From the NCBI GenBank assembly GCA_003224135.1, contig QHYO01000260.1:1-10511 (forward strand): a stretch of DNA of 10,511 bases, read 5' to 3'. Made by a program: the position numbers and the translations under genes. The DNA is from Acidobacteriota bacterium. GTDB taxonomy: Bacteria; Acidobacteriota; Terriglobia; Acidiferrales; UBA7541. Shown piece after piece: positions 1 through 8,272 of the stretch; position 1 is the first letter of the stretch; the number at the start of each line of letters is the position of its first letter. The notes under the pieces were generated by a model. The model saw only the letters and a program-made list of their open reading frames with translations. It was not told the origin of the DNA and made no database searches.

Positions 1-2728
1 CGGGACGTTTACTTCGACAGATTCAGCTGCGTACCAACAAATGCTGCACGATGTGAACGATCTTCACGCGGGCGGATTTATTCTCGTTACGCGGATCACG
101 CCACTGGGAATTGAGAAAAGCCAGACTTACCCGTCCGCTGTGTTGAGCAATCAACTGCAGACGCAATCGAAATTGCCGCTGCTGATCGGAGCGGACTTCG
201 AGCGCGGGTCGGCGATGCGCCTCGATGAAGGAACTTCATTCCCCACGCAAATGGCTATCGCGGCGGGCGGCGAACCTCGCGACGCTTACACGATGGGGAA
301 AATTACCGCCCTCGAAGCACGACAAGCGGGAGTGCATTGGATCTACGCTCCGGTGGCCGACGTGAACAACAATCCGGGCAATCCGATTATCAATACTCGG
401 TCGTTCGGCGAAGATCCCGCGCGCGTTTCGGAATTTGTTTCGGCGTATGTGCGTGGCGTGGAAGAAAATGGCGGACTGGCAACGGCGAAGCATTTCCCGG
501 GGCATGGTGATACGGCCGCTGATTCACATATCGACTTGCCGGTTATTCACGCGGACCGGCAAAGGCTCGAATCGCTGGAATTTGTTCCCTTCCGTGCGGC
601 CATTGCCGCCGGCGTTGGCAGCATCATGACGGGCCACCTGAACGTACCTGCGCTCGAGCCGGATTCCAACACGCCGGCAACTCTGTCTTCACACATTCTC
701 ACTGAAGTCTTGCGCAAGGACCTTGGCTTTCAGGGTCTGGTGGTTACCGACGCGATGGACATGGGTGGCATTACCGTTCGGTTCGCTCCCGGCGAGGCTG
801 CGGTACGCGCAGTCCTTGCGGGCACCGATTGCCTGCTGATGCCCCCTGTCCCCGACGCCGCGTTCGAGGCACTTCAGCGTGCCGTCAAGTCCGGGCGCAT
901 TTCGCGAGAACGGCTCGATGTATCCGTGCGACGCATCCTTGAAGCGAAGGCGCGACTCGGACTCAACAAAAAACGCTTAGTGGATGTGAACGCGATCAAC
1001 GAACATTTTGGCGAGACAGCCTGGCAGAAACAAGCTCAGGAAATTTCCGATCGCGGTGTCACGCTGTTGCGCGATACGCCGCGTCGCCTTCCTCTTGACG
1101 CGAGCAAGCCGTCACGTGCGCTGCTGCTGGCGTTTTATGCGGATCCCGAGCCGTATCCTGGTGAAGATCTTGAACGAGAACTGCGCCGTCGATTCGATTC
1201 AGTGACGACCGTTCGCGCCGATACGCGTTTTCGCGATGCCAGCAACCTGAAGCTTCCGCCACCTGATTCCTACGACGTGGCGATTCTGGCGCTCTTTGTG
1301 CGCGTGAGCGACCGCAAAGGCAACGTGGATGTCCCGGCGGAACAGGCTGCTCTTGCCGAGCAGGTATACAAATCGGCTAAGCCTGTAGTCACGCTCGGAT
1401 TTGGAAGTCCTTACTTGATCGAGCGATTCCCGCAGGCTGAAACATGGCTTGGCGCGTTCGGCATCAGTGACGTCGCGCAAATCTCCATGGCGCGGGCATT
1501 GTTCGGCGAGATTGCCGTGCGCGGGCACTTGCCTGTAACGATTCCCGGTGTGCAATTGAAAGCCGGATATGGAATTGAAGTGGCAGCCGATCCGATGAAG
1601 TTGCAACCGATGGATGTGCGGGGCCAGGCGCAACTTCAGCCAGCCTTTGATGTTGTCGAGGCAGCAATCAAGGACAAAGCATTTCCGGGAGCGACGCTTG
1701 CAATCGGATACCGCGGCAAAGTTTCGCTGCGCTCTTTCGGAAAATTCGCGTACGACGCCAAGGCTTCTGATGTGGCCATCAACACGATGTACGACATTGC
1801 GTCGCTCACAAAAGTTGTAGCGACCACCACGATCGTCGCGAAACTTGTCGAAGGCGACGTTCCTGTTCCACTTGACCTTGACGCGAACATCGAACGCTAT
1901 TTACCGGAATGGGCAAGCGGCCCGCAGCCAGAATGGCGCCATCGAGTCACGGTGCGTCATCTGCTGACGCATACTTCCGGGCTGCCCCCGTTCAGGGAAT
2001 ACTGGCGCGCCTCGAAGACCAAGCAGGACACGCTGGACAAGATTTTCGCTGAGCCGCTCGACTACCAACCCGGAACAAAGGAAGTGTATTCAGATCTGGG
2101 AATCATTCTGATGGCCGAAATTATTGAGCGCTTAACGGGCAAACCACTCGACGTCCTGGCACGCGAATGCGTTTTTTCGCCGCTTGAGATGTCCAGCACG
2201 ATGTATAGACCGGCGAAAAAACTTTGGCCGACGATTGCGCCGACAGAGATCGACAACCAGTATCGCCATCGGCTGATTCAAGGCGAAGTGCACGATGAGA
2301 ATGCCGCGGCGATTGGCGGCGTCTCCGGCCACGCAGGAGTTTTTAGCACTGCGCCCGACCTCGCGTCGTTCTGCCAAATGCTCCTGAATGGGGGAGTTTA
2401 CGCGCACCAGCGCATCCTGCGGCGCGCGACGGTCGCCGAATTCACTGTGCCGCAGGAACTTTCCGGCGGTACTCGCACGCTTGGCTGGGCGGTACCAACC
2501 GAAGGTGGCTCGAGCGGCCACTTTATGGGCCCACACACGTTCGGCCATACTGGGTTCACTGGCACGTCCATCTGGATCGATCCAGATCGCCAGTTATTTG
2601 TCGTGCTCCTAACGAATCGCGTCCACCCGACCCGCGAGAATCAGAAACTCGCGAAAGTTCGGCCGGCGCTCCACGACGCAGTCATGCAGTCTCTCGGCCT
2701 CGTAACGCCCGTAACATCACACAAATAG
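1..2728 (+). CDS. nagZ: NagZ-type GH3 beta-N-acetylglucosaminidase fused to a serine beta-lactamase-like (AmiE-like) domain, 5' partial
   Basis: The open frame runs in from the window edge (first full codon at base 2), and the residues before the ATG at 41 fit the GH3 fold, so 41 is probably internal and the true start and any signal peptide are outside. Numbering from that Met, the GH3 domain covers about 1-330. It has the NagZ loop KHFPGHGDT at 150-158 followed by DSH at 161-163 (the His/Asp acid-base element) and the nucleophile region TDAMDM with Asp237. A GH3 C-terminal-like region follows to about 520. The last 370 residues form a serine hydrolase domain with SLTK (Ser588, Lys591), YSD (Tyr683) and HTG (836-838), the three active-site motifs of class C beta-lactamase relatives. 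NagZ removes GlcNAc from muropeptides. The second domain resembles the Bacillus AmiE/YbbE group of MurNAc-L-Ala amidases, but esterase or D-Ala-peptidase activity is possible. It converges with the murU-like gene, 23 bp away. The fusion architecture is known in other bacteria. Confidence 0.9.
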   Translation, partial: GTFTSTDSAAYQQMLHDVNDLHAGGFILVTRITPLGIEKSQTYPSAVLSNQLQTQSKLPLLIGADFERGSAMRLDEGTSFPTQMAIAAGGEPRDAYTMGKITALEARQAGVHWIYAPVADVNNNPGNPIINTRSFGEDPARVSEFVSAYVRGVEENGGLATAKHFPGHGDTAADSHIDLPVIHADRQRLESLEFVPFRAAIAAGVGSIMTGHLNVPALEPDSNTPATLSSHILTEVLRKDLGFQGLVVTDAMDMGGITVRFAPGEAAVRAVLAGTDCLLMPPVPDAAFEALQRAVKSGRISRERLDVSVRRILEAKARLGLNKKRLVDVNAINEHFGETAWQKQAQEISDRGVTLLRDTPRRLPLDASKPSRALLLAFYADPEPYPGEDLERELRRRFDSVTTVRADTRFRDASNLKLPPPDSYDVAILALFVRVSDRKGNVDVPAEQAALAEQVYKSAKPVVTLGFGSPYLIERFPQAETWLGAFGISDVAQISMARALFGEIAVRGHLPVTIPGVQLKAGYGIEVAADPMKLQPMDVRGQAQLQPAFDVVEAAIKDKAFPGATLAIGYRGKVSLRSFGKFAYDAKASDVAINTMYDIASLTKVVATTTIVAKLVEGDVPVPLDLDANIERYLPEWASGPQPEWRHRVTVRHLLTHTSGLPPFREYWRASKTKQDTLDKIFAEPLDYQPGTKEVYSDLGIILMAEIIERLTGKPLDVLARECVFSPLEMSSTMYRPAKKLWPTIAPTEIDNQYRHRLIQGEVHDENAAAIGGVSGHAGVFSTAPDLASFCQMLLNGGVYAHQRILRRATVAEFTVPQELSGGTRTLGWAVPTEGGSSGHFMGPHTFGHTGFTGTSIWIDPDRQLFVVLLTNRVHPTRENQKLAKVRPALHDAVMQSLGLVTPVTSHK

Positions 2729-2751: not shown

Positions 2752-3501
2752 CTATTGGAGAAAAACTTTCTCAGCCAGGTCGTGGGCGGCCTGGCGAATA
2801 CTGTCGGGTTTGCCGAGGTCGCGCCAATAGTATTCATCGGCGTGGAAGGCGCGAATCTTTTCTCCCTGCGCGGCAAGCCGAAGATAGCTGTCGATGATGG
2901 AGAAGACACCTTCTTCCGTCATCAGCGTGAGCAGCTGCGGAGAAATTACGTGGATGCCGGAAAAAGCCAGCGGCTCGAGGTGAGGCGCGACGCGGACAAT
3001 TTCGGGCTCGCGATCACGTCCGACTCGGCGGCCGCAAAGCTGATCGTTGTCGTCAAAAAGCAGCTGCCTGGAACTCTCACGCTTCTGCACTGCCACGGTA
3101 ACCAAAGAACTAGAATCCTCGTGCTGTTGCACGATGCGCGCCAAGTCAATTGTGCTTAGTACGTCCACGTTGTGCAGAATGAATGGCTCGGAGCCGCTGG
3201 ACGCATGTTCGAGGAAAAACCATGCCGCCTTCTTCAAGCCGCCGCCCGTGTCGAGCAACACATCTTCGCGCGAAACTTCAATTCGCATTTCAAAATTGCT
3301 GTTCGCTTTCAGGTAGTCGACGAGCATGTCCGCGAAGTGATGGACGTTGACAATCACTTCGTTTACGCCGAACGTTCGCAAGCGCGAGAGGGTAATTTCG
3401 AGCAGGGTGCGGCCTGCGATCTCTACCAGAGCCTTCGGACGGTCAGCGCTCAGCGGACGGAGGCGCGTGCCGAGTCCCGCAGCCAACACCATTGCTTTCA
3501 T
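2752..3501 (-). CDS. murU: MurU-like sugar-1-phosphate nucleotidyltransferase (probable MurNAc-1-phosphate uridylyltransferase)
   Basis: A 249-residue protein of the nucleotidyltransferase family that joins a sugar-1-phosphate to an NTP. The N-terminal signature GLGTRLRPLS (9-18) with PKAL (22-25, Lys23) binds the nucleotide. DTGGG (84-88), NVD with Asp113 as likely metal ligand, FSGIHVIS (180-187) and the closing YYWRDLGKPDSI (224-235) complete the fold. It lacks the left-handed beta-helix acyltransferase domain of GlmU, which fits MurU or a GDP-mannose/dTDP-glucose type enzyme. The MurU call (MurNAc-1-P plus UTP to UDP-MurNAc) rests mainly on context: the gene lies 24 bp downstream of the AmgK-like kinase on the same strand and within a peptidoglycan recycling locus. 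The ATG at 3501 is preceded by a weak AAAGG about 6 nt upstream, and translation may be coupled to the upstream gene. Substrate is unproven; a mannose-1-phosphate guanylyltransferase is the main alternative. Confidence 0.8.
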   Translation of the reverse strand: MKAMVLAAGLGTRLRPLSADRPKALVEIAGRTLLEITLSRLRTFGVNEVIVNVHHFADMLVDYLKANSNFEMRIEVSREDVLLDTGGGLKKAAWFFLEHASSGSEPFILHNVDVLSTIDLARIVQQHEDSSSLVTVAVQKRESSRQLLFDDNDQLCGRRVGRDREPEIVRVAPHLEPLAFSGIHVISPQLLTLMTEEGVFSIIDSYLRLAAQGEKIRAFHADEYYWRDLGKPDSIRQAAHDLAEKVFLQ

Positions 3502-3525: not shown

Positions 3526-4953
3526 TCATTGACCAAGCGCCTCCAAGCCAAGGTGCCGAACCTCCACGTGCAAGCCTTTTCGGGCGCGTAAACGCTTCGC
3601 TAGTTGCTCCGCCAGAAAAACCGAGCGATGCTGTCCGCCGGTACAACCGAATGACACCATCAAGTTCTTAAATTTCCGCTCCTCGTAACTGCTGACAGTC
3701 GCGTCCACAAGCGACATCACGCTCGCGAGAAACTGATGCACGTTTTCCTGCTGATTGAGATAGTCGATGACCGGCTGGTCCTTGCCAGTCAGCGGCTTAA
3801 ACCGCTCTTCCCGTCCGGGATTTGGCAGGCTGCGCCCATCAAACACGAATCCACCGCCGTTTCCGGTTTCATCTTTCGGCAAGCCCTTGTGAAAGGAAAA
3901 ACTGAAAATGCGAACGGTGAGATTGTCAGCTTCGCCGGCCAGACTCTGCAACTTTTCTGACGCCAGCATGCTCTTGAAGGCGCCCATCAGCGTCGGTAGT
4001 TCAATCGGCAATTCCGCGTGATGAAGAAGCCAGCGAAGATTTTTCAGCGCGTAGGGAACGCTTTGCAGAAAATGTGCTCGGCGTTCGTAAAATCCGCGAA
4101 AGCCGTACGCCCCCAGGGCCTGTAAAATACGCACGTAAACATAGGCGTAGTAGTGCCTGACAAACGCGTCGCGTTCGATCTGGATGTAAGGGCCGAGCGC
4201 GTCGAGATAGTGGTGGAGCAGTTGCTGACGAATTTCTGGAGGCAGGTCAGCCTTGGCATCATACAAAAGTGATGCGATGTCATATTGCAAAGCGCCCTTG
4301 CGGCCACCCTGATAGTCCACGAAAAACGGCGCGCCGTCGCGCAACATCACGTTGCGAGATTGAAAATCCCTGTAGAGAAAATAGTCACAGTCTGCGGTGA
4401 GCAAAAAATCGGTCAGTCGGCCAAAATCGCTTTCCAATGCGGATTCGCTAAACGGGATTCCCGCAAGCCGCAGAAAATAATATTTGAAATAATTCAAATC
4501 CCAGGTGATTGATTGGCGGTCAAAACTCGGGCATGGGTAGCAAACGCTGTAATCCAAATCGCGCCCAGCTTCCACTTGAAAACGCGGTAGCAAAGCAACC
4601 ACGTCCTTGTAAGCGTCCACCACTTGCGGCGAAATTTCTTCGTTTTTGCGGTTTTTGGACAGGAATTCAAACAGCGTGGTGTCGCCCAGATCTTCTTCGA
4701 GATATGCGCCCTGGTCCAAATCTTCGGCGTAGATTTCGGGAACGGGCAGGCCGTGTGTGCGAAAGTGCTTGGAAAACGAAAGAAACGCGGCGTTTTCTTC
4801 GCGCACGCCGTAGAGAATGCCGACGGCGCTCGCTTTATTATTCGAAAGCCGGATAATCTTGCGCCCAGAACCGCCTAGTTCTCCTTGCAGCGGCTGCACT
4901 CGTTCCGCTGGCGAGTAAAAATGCTGCTCGAATAGCTTTTTCAACACATCCAT
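3526..4953 (-). CDS. AmgK-like aminoglycoside-phosphotransferase-fold sugar kinase fused to a RapZ C-terminal domain
   Basis: The frame is open to an ATG at 5037, but the ATG at 4953 is preferred (475 residues): similarity to the kinase begins at MDVLKKLFEQ, and the extra 28 residues cross the divergent promoter region. Residues 1 to about 330 form an APH-fold kinase with the catalytic loop YRDFQSRN (Asp196, Asn201) and the metal site VDYQGG (Asp213). The usual His of the HRD motif is Tyr here. Residues from about 345 match the C-terminal half of RapZ: a FVFDGRSLPNP block, then LTGKDQPV, then GCTGGQHRSV with Cys437, His442 and Arg443, the loop that in E. coli RapZ binds glucosamine-6-phosphate. 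The RapZ N-terminal ATPase half is absent, and the basic KRK end used for RNA binding is replaced by a neutral tail. AmgK phosphorylates MurNAc or GlcNAc at the anomeric position. A role ahead of MurU is inferred from the neighbouring gene. Related kinase-RapZ-C fusions occur in Bacteroidota as I recall them. Confidence 0.82.
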   Translation of the reverse strand: MDVLKKLFEQHFYSPAERVQPLQGELGGSGRKIIRLSNNKASAVGILYGVREENAAFLSFSKHFRTHGLPVPEIYAEDLDQGAYLEEDLGDTTLFEFLSKNRKNEEISPQVVDAYKDVVALLPRFQVEAGRDLDYSVCYPCPSFDRQSITWDLNYFKYYFLRLAGIPFSESALESDFGRLTDFLLTADCDYFLYRDFQSRNVMLRDGAPFFVDYQGGRKGALQYDIASLLYDAKADLPPEIRQQLLHHYLDALGPYIQIERDAFVRHYYAYVYVRILQALGAYGFRGFYERRAHFLQSVPYALKNLRWLLHHAELPIELPTLMGAFKSMLASEKLQSLAGEADNLTVRIFSFSFHKGLPKDETGNGGGFVFDGRSLPNPGREERFKPLTGKDQPVIDYLNQQENVHQFLASVMSLVDATVSSYEERKFKNLMVSFGCTGGQHRSVFLAEQLAKRLRARKGLHVEVRHLGLEALGQ

Positions 4954-5043
4954 GTAGTCAGTCCCGGCATATCTCGGTTTTTGAAGATTCCTCAAGAATT
5001 GTACTTTTCCAGAATAGCTGATTCCTGATGAAACCATCGTGCA

Positions 5044-5059
5044 ACAACTCTAGGGTTGT
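5044..5059. promoter_or_regulatory. Palindromic operator-like site ACAACTCTAGGGTTGT
   Basis: The two half-sites ACAAC and GTTGT are exact inverted repeats around a CTAG core, with one mismatched pair (T/G). The site sits in the divergent region, about 40 bp upstream of the possible kinase -10 box and about 150 bp upstream of the murQ -10 box. Symmetry and place suit a dimeric regulator of the recycling genes. No regulator gene is present in the window and only one copy was found by eye, so chance is a real alternative. Confidence 0.3.
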
Positions 5060-5182
5060 CCATGGAATTAGCGCCGGGCCAATTGGTGCAGGTCGAAGCG
5101 GTCGCGGGCCAGTGGCAGGCTGCGTTGGACCTTGCCAAGTAGCGCGCTCTCGCTGCAAATGGCGTGTTTTTTGCGCCACGCG

Positions 5183-5213
5183 TTGGCTGTGTCTTCGCAC
5201 ACACCTATATAAT
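5183..5213 (+). promoter_or_regulatory. Putative murQ promoter with consensus -10 TATAAT
   Basis: TATAAT at 5208-5213 matches the housekeeping -10 consensus exactly. The best -35 candidate is TTGGCT at 5183-5188 with a longish 19-bp spacer, so the -10 is the stronger half. The expected transcription start, about 7 nt after the -10, falls at or next to the GTG at 5220 proposed as the murQ start codon. Confidence 0.5.
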
Positions 5214-5219
5214 GAGTGC

Positions 5220-6140
5220 GTGCCATTTCGACACGTTTCATCTAAACGCGCGGACCAACGCCTGACCGAACGCCGCAATCCTGCTTCGACAAATCTCGAC
5301 CGACTTTCCGCTGAAGCGATTGTGCGTCTGATGAATCGCGAGGACAGCAAAATCGCAACAGCCGTCGCACGAGAAATCCGATCGATCGCACGCGCAGTTG
5401 ATGCGATCGTGCACAGTATTCAGCGTGGCGGGCGTCTGTTCTACGTGGGCGCGGGTTCGAGTGGCCGGTTGGGCGTTCTGGATGCCGCGGAATGTGCGCC
5501 AACGTTTGGCACTTCGCGTAAATTAGTCCAGGCGCTGATTGCAGGAGGACGGCGCGCTGTGACGAACGCGGTTGAAGGCGCGGAGGACTTGGTTCGAAAT
5601 GGTGAACTGGATTTGCGAGCCAAAAAATTGACGCCAAAAGACGTGGTCATTGGAATTGCCGCGAGTGGCACCACCCCGTACGTGCTAGGCGCGTTGAAGT
5701 ATGCGCGAAAATGCAAGGCGACGACGGTGGCGGTGACTGCCAATCGCAACATGCCCGTCGCTCGGATTGCGAAAATCTTGATCGCACCGGAGGTCGGCCC
5801 TGAAGTACTGACGGGATCCACTCGGCTGAAGGCCGGCACAGCGCAAAAAATGGTTCTCAACATGCTATCTACTGCCGCGATGGTGCGGTTAGGACATGCA
5901 TATGAAAACCTGATGATCGATCTTCTGGATACAAATGAAAAGCTGTCCGAGCGTTCGGTTCGGATATTGGCAGAAGCAAGCGGGAAAGATCTGTCCGCTG
6001 CCAAACACGCGCTGCGGCAATCCGGACACAATTTGCGTGTGGCGCTGGTCATGCTGAAAAAGAAGGTAGATGCGCCAAGCGCAAAGCTAATGCTGAAAAC
6101 CTCTATGGGCAATCTGCGCCTGGCCCTGGGGGAGTCGTAG
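5220..6140 (+). CDS. murQ: N-acetylmuramic acid 6-phosphate etherase
   Basis: MurQ cleaves the lactyl ether of MurNAc-6-phosphate to give GlcNAc-6-phosphate and D-lactate in the cytoplasm. From the chosen GTG the protein is 306 residues, close to the usual 300. The family opening TERRNPASTNLDRL is at 16-29. The SIS domain has the phosphosugar loop VGAGSSGRLG (76-85) followed by DAAECAPTFG (88-97), with Glu91 matching the catalytic acid, and AVEGAED (117-123) holds the second conserved glutamate. The C-terminal helical segment (about 250-306) is the small UBA/CUE-like region typical of MurQ. The frame stays open upstream to an ATG at 5028, but those 64 residues are Cys/Arg-rich, unlike the family, and overlap the promoter. 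A CTG at 5262 would start right at the conserved opening and is a rarer alternative. murA follows after 73 bp and is probably cotranscribed. No MurNAc-6-P producing kinase or PTS gene is visible. Confidence 0.93.
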   Translation: MPFRHVSSKRADQRLTERRNPASTNLDRLSAEAIVRLMNREDSKIATAVAREIRSIARAVDAIVHSIQRGGRLFYVGAGSSGRLGVLDAAECAPTFGTSRKLVQALIAGGRRAVTNAVEGAEDLVRNGELDLRAKKLTPKDVVIGIAASGTTPYVLGALKYARKCKATTVAVTANRNMPVARIAKILIAPEVGPEVLTGSTRLKAGTAQKMVLNMLSTAAMVRLGHAYENLMIDLLDTNEKLSERSVRILAEASGKDLSAAKHALRQSGHNLRVALVMLKKKVDAPSAKLMLKTSMGNLRLALGES

Positions 6141-6202
6141 CGGCCGTTTGGTGCGGTTGTTTCTTCCGGGCCGCGCGCGGGGTACGAAGGCAAACTGCTT
6201 TT

Positions 6203-6210
6203 GGAAGAGG
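6203..6210 (+). promoter_or_regulatory. Ribosome binding site deciding the murA start
   Basis: The purine run GGAAGAGG lies just before the ATG at 6214 (6 nt from the end of GGAAG). This site and the exact MurA N-terminus MDKFVITGGKPL place the start at 6214 rather than at an upstream in-frame GTG/ATG around 6148. Confidence 0.6.
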
Positions 6211-6213
6211 CTC

Positions 6214-7497
6214 ATGGACAAATTTGTCATCACCGGCGGTAAACCTCTCCACGGCACCGTGGCGATCAGCGGCGCAAAAAATTCCGCATTGCCCGCGATG
6301 GCCGCCTCCCTGCTGACCGCCGAGCGCCTTGCCCTTCACAATGTGGCCATGGTGCGGGACATCATCACGATGGGAAAGCTTCTTGCCTACATGGGAGCGA
6401 GTGTCACCACCAGCGAATTTCCCGCGGCTGACTACAGTTTTCAAGCGCACACCATCAGCGACGCGGTCGCGCCCTACGAGCTCGTGAAAACCATGCGTGC
6501 ATCCATCCTGACGCTGGGCCCGGCATTGGCGCGAACCGGCGTCGCGCGCGTGTCGCTACCCGGTGGATGCGCGATTGGCGCGCGCCCAGTGGACTTGCAT
6601 CTGACGGCTCTGGAAAAAATGGGCGCGGAGATTGCTACGTCGCACGGCTACATTGAAGCGCGTGCCCCGAAGGGCGGCCGGCTTAAAGGCGGTCACGTCG
6701 TTTTCGAAAAAATCACCGTCACCGGGACGGAAAACATTCTGATGGCGGCAACGCTCGCGGACGGCGAAACGATCCTCGAAAACTCGGCGCGCGAGCCGGA
6801 AGTAACCGATCTGATTGTGCTGCTTCGCAAAATGGGCGCCAGGATTTCGGGCGATGAAACTTCCACGCTTCGTGTTCAAGGCGTGGCAGCGCTTCACGGC
6901 GCGGAACATTTCGTGATCCCGGATCGCATCGAGGCGGGCACGTTCCTAGTCGCGGGAGCAATCACGAATGGGGATTTAACGCTTACCAATTGCGAGCCGC
7001 GGCACCTGGGCGCCGTGATCAGTACGCTTCGCGACGCGGGTGTGTCTATCGAAGAATCGGCCGCGGGAACATTGCGCGTGCGCGGCGGCGGAAAGCTTGT
7101 TGCAGCAGATGTGACCACTGAGGAATACCCCGGCTTTGCCACTGACATGCAGGCTCAATACATGGCACTTGCCACACAGGCGGAAGGCGCATCCACCATC
7201 ACGGAGACGATTTTTGAAAACCGCTATCTTCATGCGAGCGAAATGATTCGTATGGGCGCGCATATTTCGATCGATGGCCGTCACGCTATCGTGCGAGGCC
7301 CCGCACAGCTTAGCGGAACGACCGTCCAGGCTTCCGACCTTCGCGCCAGCGCCGGCCTGGTGCTGGCTGCGCTGGTTGCCAACGGCGAAACCACCATCGA
7401 ACGCGTTTATCACATTGACCGCGGATACGAACGCATCGTGGAAAAACTCAGCGCCGTCGGGGCAAACATTGGGCGCGTCCACGCGCCCAGCTCCTAA
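6214..7497 (+). CDS. murA: UDP-N-acetylglucosamine 1-carboxyvinyltransferase
   Basis: MurA transfers enolpyruvate from PEP to UDP-GlcNAc, the committed cytoplasmic step of peptidoglycan synthesis. The protein is 427 residues against 419 in E. coli. GAKNSALP gives Lys22 and Asn23 at the same numbers as in E. coli. The PEP-site Cys is present as Cys119 in LPGGCAIGARPVDLH, so the enzyme is predicted to be fosfomycin-sensitive, unlike Cys-to-Asp variants. MRASILTLGP, GFATDMQAQ (the conserved Asp) and the C-terminal DLRASAGL with RGYERIVEKL are all intact. It follows murQ on the same strand, so recycling (MurQ output via GlcNAc-6-P) and re-entry into UDP-MurNAc synthesis would be coexpressed. The gap before it contains a GC-only palindrome (CCGCGCGCGG, 6171-6180) with no clear terminator form. 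Confidence 0.97.
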   Translation: MDKFVITGGKPLHGTVAISGAKNSALPAMAASLLTAERLALHNVAMVRDIITMGKLLAYMGASVTTSEFPAADYSFQAHTISDAVAPYELVKTMRASILTLGPALARTGVARVSLPGGCAIGARPVDLHLTALEKMGAEIATSHGYIEARAPKGGRLKGGHVVFEKITVTGTENILMAATLADGETILENSAREPEVTDLIVLLRKMGARISGDETSTLRVQGVAALHGAEHFVIPDRIEAGTFLVAGAITNGDLTLTNCEPRHLGAVISTLRDAGVSIEESAAGTLRVRGGGKLVAADVTTEEYPGFATDMQAQYMALATQAEGASTITETIFENRYLHASEMIRMGAHISIDGRHAIVRGPAQLSGTTVQASDLRASAGLVLAALVANGETTIERVYHIDRGYERIVEKLSAVGANIGRVHAPSS

Positions 7498-7529: not shown

Positions 7530-7586
7530 TTACTTCATCATTCTTCGGCGCGGTGTGAATGAATCGTTGCCGACTAGGTCAATCGC

Positions 7587-7594
7587 GGAGGGTG
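7587..7594 (+). promoter_or_regulatory. Strong Shine-Dalgarno for the CADD-family gene
   Basis: GGAGGGTG is a near-ideal anti-16S match, with 9 nt between GGAGG and the ATG at 7601. It selects 7601 over the in-frame ATG at 7559, which would add 14 residues foreign to the family and would leave this site inside the coding region. Confidence 0.7.
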
Positions 7595-7600
7595 CTTAGC

Positions 7601-8272
7601 ATGTCCAACACACAGCTTCTGGAAAAAATCGACGCTGCCATCGCGGAAAAGAACCTTCTTAAGCATCCGTTTTACCAGGACTGGCAGGCCGGCAAACTTT
7701 CTCGGGAATCTCTTCAGCTCTACGCCGCTCAGTACTACCGCCACGTGGATGCCTTCCCGAAGCATTTGCGCGTCCTCGCGGCGCGTGCCGATGAATCGCT
7801 GAAACCTGTGGTCCTGGAAAATCTCGCCGAAGAAGAGAATCCGGCAGCTCCGCATCCGCAATTGTGGCGGGACTTTGCGGCAGCCCTCGGCGTCAGCGAA
7901 GAGGACATCACGTCGTCGCCGTCACTTCCTGGGACGCAGAACGTGGTTCACACCTTTCGCGATATTTGTGCCAATCGTTCGATTGCCGAAGCCGTAGCCG
8001 CGCTGTATGCCTACGAAGCGCAGGTTCCTGAAATTGCGACGACGAAGATGGATGGATTAAACCGGTTCTACGCAATTAACGATGCCAAGGGCACTGCGTA
8101 CTTTGCCGTCCACGAAGAAACCGACAAGGCGCACCGCGCGGCATGGCGCAATTGGCTTGGCGAAAACGCCAACGGGAACGAAGAGCAGATCCTCGCGTCC
8201 ACTCGCGACGCTCTCAACGCGCTTTGGGGAGCGCTGGACGCCGTCCACTCGGGATCCTGCGCTAAGCACTAG
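7601..8272 (+). CDS. CADD-family putative folate metabolism protein (PqqC/TenA-like fold; possible self-sacrificing p-aminobenzoate synthase)
   Basis: The 223-residue, all-helical protein resembles Chlamydia CADD (CT610), a heme-oxygenase-like dimetal protein that makes p-aminobenzoate for folate from its own tyrosine side chain. The opening HPFYQDW (22-28) carries Tyr25 at the place of the chlamydial sacrificed Tyr27. YAAQYYRHVDAFPKHL (41-56) follows. The metal-ligand pattern is complete by alignment from memory: Glu78 in EEEN, His85, Glu139 in YEAQVP, and His171, Asp175 and His178 in HEETDKAH. Lys149 in TTKMDGL matches the lysine proposed as amine donor. The start is set by the Shine-Dalgarno at 7587. 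It lies 103 bp after murA on the same strand and converges with pnp. No folate gene is nearby, and the peptidoglycan context does not explain it. PqqC-like or TenA-like enzymes are less likely given the specific matches. Confidence 0.85.
   Translation: MSNTQLLEKIDAAIAEKNLLKHPFYQDWQAGKLSRESLQLYAAQYYRHVDAFPKHLRVLAARADESLKPVVLENLAEEENPAAPHPQLWRDFAAALGVSEEDITSSPSLPGTQNVVHTFRDICANRSIAEAVAALYAYEAQVPEIATTKMDGLNRFYAINDAKGTAYFAVHEETDKAHRAAWRNWLGENANGNEEQILASTRDALNALWGALDAVHSGSCAKH

Follow-up and report, generated by a model that had tools for sequence, protein, structure and literature searches.

The locus described here raises the question of what the C-terminal domain of RapZ (RapZ-C) does when it forms a single polypeptide with a sugar kinase. 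The window, that is, the whole stretch of DNA analysed, spans 10,511 nucleotides of a contig from an Acidobacteriota bacterium, and the gene in question (3526-4953) is located on its minus strand, the plus-strand frame at this place being full of stops. A first-pass annotation, made from the letters alone, had described an APH-fold kinase followed by a RapZ-C-like domain with the GCTGGQHRSV loop, devoid of both the ATPase half of RapZ and its basic C-terminal end, and had suggested that the fused domain senses glucosamine-6-phosphate (GlcN6P) or a related hexosamine phosphate and tunes the kinase without any RNA. The gene and its parts are as follows:

3526..4953 (stop codon included), minus strand: whole gene of the kinase-RapZ-C fusion, 475 aa (ORF, Pfam, PDB and homologue lengths)
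3994..4953, minus strand: AmgK-like APH-fold kinase, residues 1-320, with catalytic YRDFQSRN (194-201) and VDYQGG (212-217)
3550..3918, minus strand: RapZ C-terminal domain, residues 346-468 (Pfam PF22740)
3853..3870, minus strand: Gly-rich insert, five extra residues relative to RapZ, about 362-367 (alignments to RapZ)
3814..3816, minus strand: Gly at residue 380, aligned with His190 in the pocket of E. coli RapZ
3622..3645, minus strand: phosphate-pocket loop C-T-G-G-Q-H-R-S, residues 437-444 (C-x5-R-S), equivalent to E. coli C247-S254

The frame could open at 5037, and the ATG at 4953 gives the 475 aa that represent the commonest homologue length (59 of 120, these being the best 120 of 8000 scored). 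Both halves are recognised by Pfam, with an APH match at residues 52-252 (E 4.9e-11) and a RapZ_C match (PF22740) at 346-468 (E 9.3e-36) that scores 123.1 bits against a gathering cut-off of 27 and covers positions 2-118 of the 121 in the profile. A sequence comparison with the PDB ranked E. coli RapZ (E 3.6e-22) and the APH-fold entry 3csv (E 2.3e-17) highest, the loop GCTGGQHRSV occupies residues 436-445, and in fold searches the predicted fold of the C-domain matches RapZ-C closely. The ATPase half of RapZ is absent, since model NF003828 reaches 117.8 bits against a cut-off of 244 and is matched at profile positions 148-275 only, and so is the basic tail, with E. coli K281-R282-K283 aligned to A-L-G. 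The architecture first read from the sequence was thus confirmed by Pfam, by the PDB matches and by conserved relatives, the missing parts by the partial NF003828 match and the A-L-G tail, and the fold comparison proposed at that time also came out in its favour; such an architecture is far beyond chance. At the level of the kinase half, the similarity to AmgK, the anomeric MurNAc/GlcNAc kinase of Pseudomonas and Caulobacter, consists of the APH fold, a weak model match (E 1.3e-16) and a MurU-like partner gene, and from this kinship the fusion kinase may be specific for MurNAc. Unlike AmgK, it falls below the NCBIfam AmgK equivalog cut-offs (60.8 of 500 bits and 51.8 of 550 bits), carries RapZ-C and belongs to its own clade on the kinase tree.

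The neighbouring genes point to a peptidoglycan-recycling setting:

2752..3501, minus strand: MurU-like sugar-1-phosphate nucleotidyltransferase, 249 aa, 24 bp downstream of the fusion (NTP_transferase, E 4.7e-26)
5028..6140, plus strand: MurQ, MurNAc-6-phosphate etherase, divergent from the fusion (TIGR00274, 360 bits, cut-off 302)
6148..7497, plus strand: MurA (TIGR01072, over cut-off)
41..2728, plus strand: GH3 (NagZ-like) hydrolase fused to a beta-lactamase/PBP4B-type domain (profile matches)

Against the MurU model, the MurU-like neighbour gives E 4.5e-34 and 118.3 bits, below the equivalog cut-off of 250. The true start of MurQ is probably near 5250, because the family match begins at ORF residue 76-79, and the GH3 fusion frame is open at the left edge of the window. 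Only four of the 80 loci compared, the best of 587 confirmed, have a GH3 match in their examined flanks, and downstream of MurA lies a TENA/PqqC-fold gene (7559-8272, plus strand) that exceeds the cut-off of a CADD-family putative folate protein model. The genome to which the window belongs (804 contigs, 85% complete) also contains AnmK and a separate complete RapZ.

In MurNAc salvage by the AmgK-MurU route, we know of no enzyme assigned to the MurNAc-6-phosphate (MurNAc-6P) phosphatase step outside Proteobacteria. This route makes UDP-MurNAc, bypassing the de novo step blocked by fosfomycin, and in Pseudomonas MupP is the HAD-family MurNAc-6-phosphate phosphatase (PMC5371407). For Caulobacter, an enumeration within one study lists AnmK, MupP, AmgK and MurU, and not MurQ (PMC13046382).

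The kinase-RapZ-C fusion is real, widespread and conserved. As had been supposed, it exists elsewhere: both domains are present in 120 of the 120 homologues listed (the best 120 of 8000 scored), and among aligned relatives PF22740 is matched in 55 of 55 and APH in 54 of 55. According to their record titles, the best 80 of 587 confirmed loci belong to Acidobacteria, KSB1, Calditrichota, Neomarinimicrobia, Elusimicrobia, Ignavibacteria, Bacteroidetes, Deferribacteres, Opitutia and other MAGs. The genome-neighbourhood survey that the first-pass annotation had called for found a MurU-like gene downstream on the same strand in 73 of these 80 loci, which, along with the MurU-like and MurQ neighbours in the window, bears out the proposed tie to MurNAc salvage. 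The gap between both genes is -30 to 150 bp in 70 of the 73 (median -4 bp), with L047 (-441, in an odd frame), L049 (286) and L067 (325) as exceptions. Among the seven loci without a MurU match, three (L038, L040, L076) have merely 0-109 bp of contig downstream, and in the remaining four (L063, L066, L069, L077) MurU was not found by profile on the surrounding DNA. When neighbours were clustered more loosely, MurU formed a group spanning 59 loci, and every other neighbour was confined to six loci at most. The fusion is unmentioned in the titles and abstract openings of the open-licence PMC literature found by search, and its function seems undescribed.

On a midpoint-rooted kinase tree of 80 rows, with several long branches and many open forks within the fusion clade, the fusion kinases make up one side of a 100/99 branch; one RapZ-C-less member (G155) falls inside this clade and 13 other RapZ-C-less rows (11 genomes) fall outside. 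This topology makes a single, ancient origin of the fusion probable, and fusion samples are accordingly not independent. Of 48 fusion genomes, mostly MAGs, 26 gave no RapZ-C match besides the fusion, so the fusion seems not to depend on RapZ; this and the missing RNA-binding tail agree with the earlier suggestion of a domain that acts without RNA.

Other arrangements of the same domains were also observed. In L129 (7630-8136, minus strand), a standalone 168-aa RapZ-C of the fusion type keeps the Gly-rich insert and an intact loop; neither kinase nor MurU was found across this 16-kb stretch, and its genome (G343) has no other fusion-protein match. In two Verrucomicrobiota genomes, a single frame joins an N-terminal MurU-like part to a C-terminal AmgK-like kinase (L123, 1483-3237, and L125, 1450-3444, both minus strand); these frames of 585-665 aa are devoid of RapZ-C, and comparable frame lengths are seen for many other kinase matches in Verrucomicrobiota. 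A complete fusion with MurU occurs on the human-gut record MT836462 (L126, 2906-5174, plus strand), filed as 'Bacteriophage sp.' and probably a bacterial contig in view of these two genes. A phage origin of RapZ-C was considered and dropped: out of 63 matching phage records, the three examined were this human-gut contig with fusion and MurU, a Salmonella chromosome contig and a Microcystis phage record, the last with a longer RapZ-like gene adjoining a 'gluconeogenesis factor' gene.

The residues of the fused domain have been compared with the pocket of its E. coli counterpart. In RapZ, the GlcN6P/phosphate pocket is reported to comprise H190, T248, G249, H252 and R253 (PMC5737377), and His190 is cited among the residues essential for GlmZ cleavage (PMC9841335). 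It has been described that E. coli RapZ-C binds GlcN6P with a KD of 10 nM and responds to it, and that full-length RapZ gives no response to Glc6P or GlcN (PMC7073468). In the alignment, C247, T248, G249, H252, R253 and S254 correspond to C437, T438, G439, H442, R443 and S444, and D176, D182, R184 and H190 to D361, D372, R374 and G380, so that four pocket residues (T438, G439, H442, R443) are kept and the fifth is replaced by Gly380. C437, H442, R443, S444, D361, D372, D392 and G380 are invariant in 55 of 55 aligned fusions, and the loop residues T438, G439 and G440 are invariant as well. The His190 position is thereby Gly in every aligned fusion and His in all ten readable RapZ copies (the one of the same genome, eight from fusion genomes and one from Salmonella), two more copies having been missed by the pattern. 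The Gly-rich insert, placed at 363-367 by one alignment and at 362-366 by another, precedes the second strand of the domain; the aligned fusions have it, whereas E. coli RapZ, the RapZ of the same genome and the RapZ copies compared do not, and G364, G366, G367 and G368 of this region are invariant. The insert may contribute to the shape of the ligand site in which RapZ has His190. Compared with E. coli RapZ-C (PDB 5o5s, PF22740), the fused domain thus differs in this substitution and insert, in the lost ATPase half and tail, and in being joined to a kinase and adjoining MurU. The change of His190 to an invariant Gly and the Gly-rich insert weaken the GlcN6P-sensing role that had been proposed for the domain.

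The conserved loop presents a different similarity. The phosphate loop of cysteine (PTP-type) phosphatases is C-x5-R-[ST] with Gly at C+3, and CTGGQHRS of the fusion has this same spacing, with no variation among fusions at C, R, S or the C+3 Gly. This resemblance appears to be a likeness of the loop only, as judged by sequence: no PTP or cysteine-phosphatase fold was found among the top 50 C-domain fold matches listed, and the LMW-PTP sequence match to the fusion amounts to 12 bits (E 0.54), aligned on the loop. Regarding RapZ itself, E. coli RapZ activity is reported to be abolished by C247A and also by C247S, its authors considering that the -SH group of Cys247 may have a specialised catalytic function, and altered GlcN6P density has been reported. 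Among RapZ relatives, B. subtilis YvcJ, a full-length protein with Walker motifs unlike the fusion, 'exhibits NTPase and phosphatase activities' (PMC7525490), and ATPase and phosphatase activity is ascribed to X. campestris HpaP in a cited title. The essential Cys247, the altered GlcN6P density and the phosphatase activity of YvcJ are hints that fit a phosphatase reading of RapZ-C. To our knowledge, the phosphatase activity of YvcJ has been assigned to neither half of the protein.

Genome content provides new evidence on this point. If RapZ-C were a MurNAc-6P phosphatase, kinases bearing it would be expected to live with AnmK, the maker of MurNAc-6P, RapZ-C-less kinases to lack AnmK or to occur with MupP, and AnmK-positive genomes without MurQ to need the fusion or MupP. 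In a Bacteroidota sample of 148 genomes of at least 90% completeness, where genomes with only weak SIS-domain matches were taken as MurQ-negative, AnmK is present in 15 of 20 fusion genomes versus 0 of 30 with a RapZ-C-less kinase (Fisher p 7e-9, genomes treated as independent). AnmK is common across the phylum (89 of 98 genomes without kinase match; 104 of 148 in the whole sample), therefore the contrast is only with RapZ-C-less kinases, with no enrichment over the phylum. The fusion is found in 7 of 7 AnmK-positive MurQ-negative genomes versus 8 of 97 that have both (p 3e-7, genomes again treated as independent), and MurQ or the fusion is present in every AnmK-positive Bacteroidota genome sampled. 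The 36 genomes lacking both AnmK and MurQ comprise five with the fusion, 30 with a RapZ-C-less kinase and one with neither; the eight with MurQ and no AnmK carry no kinase. Both p values include G130, an anchor genome selected on account of its fusion. Removing it leaves p 2e-8 for the AnmK contrast and the fusion in 6 of 6 AnmK-positive MurQ-negative genomes (p 2e-6), and further collapsing one cluster of three such genomes leaves 4 of 4 (p 1e-4). The 30 RapZ-C-less kinases may represent a small number of lineages, the match is interrupted by a stop codon in two of the 20 fusions (G177, G241), and the five AnmK-less fusions diverge close to the base of the clade, where resolution is poor.

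In the 48 named fusion genomes, AnmK is over cut-off in 44 and a strong MurQ match is found in 37; AnmK is present in nine of the 11 without strong MurQ, absences that are soft because these genomes are mostly MAGs, and in G136 a contig end may truncate MurQ. The AnmK-positive MurQ-negative fusions of this set belong to Acidobacteria, Bacteroidetes, Neomarinimicrobia and other MAGs. Among 144 Verrucomicrobiota genomes, AnmK is over cut-off in five and in 0 of 62 with a kinase-part match lacking RapZ-C, and the single fusion genome is the anchor G125, where AnmK is not over cut-off. Among 99 Acidobacteriota genomes, AnmK occurs in 3 of 3 with the fusion (the genome of the window included), in 13 of 61 with RapZ-C-less kinases among the matches listed, and in 21 of the other 35. 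In G155 (L108, 2590-4301, plus strand), a kinase of the fusion clade stops short of RapZ-C, with a four-base overlap with MurU; MurU is kept there, and the genome lacks AnmK and MurQ. We regard the association between fusion and AnmK as real. A GlcN6P sensor does not predict the AnmK/MurQ company of kinases with and without RapZ-C, another respect in which the role first proposed fared poorly.

The best explanation, to which we give about an even chance of being right, is that the fusion is a bifunctional peptidoglycan-recycling enzyme in which RapZ-C dephosphorylates MurNAc-6P and the kinase makes MurNAc-1-phosphate. AnmK would convert anhydro-MurNAc into MurNAc-6-phosphate, and the RapZ-C half would remove the 6-phosphate, the job of MupP in Pseudomonas. 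MupP would then share with the fusion the proposed reaction and the place in the pathway and belongs to an unrelated family, no HAD family being found among the Pfam and NCBIfam matches of the fusion. Cys437 would be the probable nucleophile attacking phosphorus, Arg443 and the amides of the 438-442 loop would hold the phosphate, and an Asp (361 or 372) or His442 are candidates for the general acid. The kinase half would then phosphorylate the anomeric carbon to give MurNAc-1-phosphate, which the neighbouring MurU-like enzyme would turn into UDP-MurNAc; alternatively, the kinase could act first and the phosphatase afterwards, via a 1,6-bisphosphate. We infer both activities and the substrate, direction and order of these reactions from domains, predicted fold, invariant residues, the gene pair with MurU and the co-occurrence with AnmK, which are directly supported. 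The enzymatic reading is the simplest one of the fusion-AnmK association, and it is supported by the Bacteroidota contrasts (AnmK with fusions and not with RapZ-C-less kinases, the fusion in all AnmK-positive MurQ-negative genomes). The RapZ-C-less fusion-clade kinase of G155, a genome without AnmK and MurQ, and the invariance of C437, H442, R443, S444, D361 and D372 also count for the phosphatase, and the downstream MurU-like gene in most of the best 80 loci for the bifunctional enzyme. Against the phosphatase count the AnmK-less fusions that keep an intact loop (5 of 20 in Bacteroidota, 4 of the 48 named genomes), the AnmK-bearing genomes among the listed RapZ-C-less Acidobacteriota kinases and, as far as predicted folds go, the lack of a cysteine-phosphatase fold among the top 50 matches listed; against the bifunctional enzyme count the kinase and MurU-like scores far below the NCBIfam equivalog cut-offs. 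MurNAc-6P has another outlet in the window and in the named genomes with strong MurQ, and a separate HAD phosphatase (MupP, model NF009696) may exist in fusion genomes.

Four other explanations have to be weighed against this bifunctional enzyme. RapZ-C could be an allosteric sensor of a hexosamine phosphate (GlcN6P, MurNAc-6P or GlcNAc-6P) that tunes the attached kinase without chemistry of its own, in line with the GlcN6P binding and response of the E. coli domain (PMC7073468), the four retained pocket residues and the close fold match. Nonetheless, the invariant Gly in place of His190 argues against it, simple binding needs no invariant Cys, a GlcN6P sensor offers no reason for the AnmK/MurQ pattern, and a MurNAc-6P sensor fits that pattern but requires an unseen MurNAc-6P phosphatase; we consider such a sensor rather unlikely, its GlcN6P version being possible and not favoured. 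The same loop evidence would serve a phosphatase for another sugar phosphate (GlcNAc-6P, GlcN6P or a bisphosphate by-product) or one that cleans up side reactions of the kinase, a proposal to which the naming of the AmgK family for both MurNAc and GlcNAc and the absence of AnmK from some fusion genomes lend weight. It leaves unexplained why all seven sampled AnmK-positive MurQ-negative Bacteroidota carry the fusion, and we find it improbable.

A role of RapZ-C mainly as a dimerisation or docking module for the kinase or MurU, with a structural loop that merely looks catalytic, would agree with the dimeric state of RapZ-C in crystals (PMC5737377), and conservation alone cannot separate structure from catalysis. 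Its probability is nevertheless low, given pocket-loop residues identical in 55 of 55 aligned fusions, an AnmK/MurQ pattern that it does not explain, and the standalone fusion-type RapZ-C with neither kinase nor MurU found on its stretch. Finally, RNA regulation of the kinase, similar to that of RapZ with GlmY/GlmZ, would be in keeping with the kinship of RapZ-C to a domain that binds RNA; at the K170 position, 29 of 55 fusions have K, 17 have H, 8 have R and 1 has Q (H355 in the window), and the K194 and R196 positions are basic in the window (R384, K386) and variable across the family. However, the basic tail is missing, the window protein has Q, F and Q in place of R211, R238 and K251, 44 of 55 fusions carry Q at the K251 position, and the RNA-binding tail has been described as confined to Enterobacteriaceae (PMC7073468), which makes this explanation very improbable.

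Returning to the bifunctional enzyme, if the fusion fills the MurNAc-6P phosphatase step, the AmgK-MurU pathway would be closed in at least eight phyla. It can be tentatively proposed, as an idea that we hold to be somewhat less probable than its opposite, that RapZ-C constitutes a new class of cysteine-dependent sugar-phosphate phosphatases, with a PTP-like loop on a phosphofructokinase-like fold, in which the MurNAc-6P role would be original and the GlcN6P sensing and RNA binding of E. coli would have come later. If true, this would explain the essential cysteine of E. coli RapZ, and the sensor would be a former, or even current, phosphatase.
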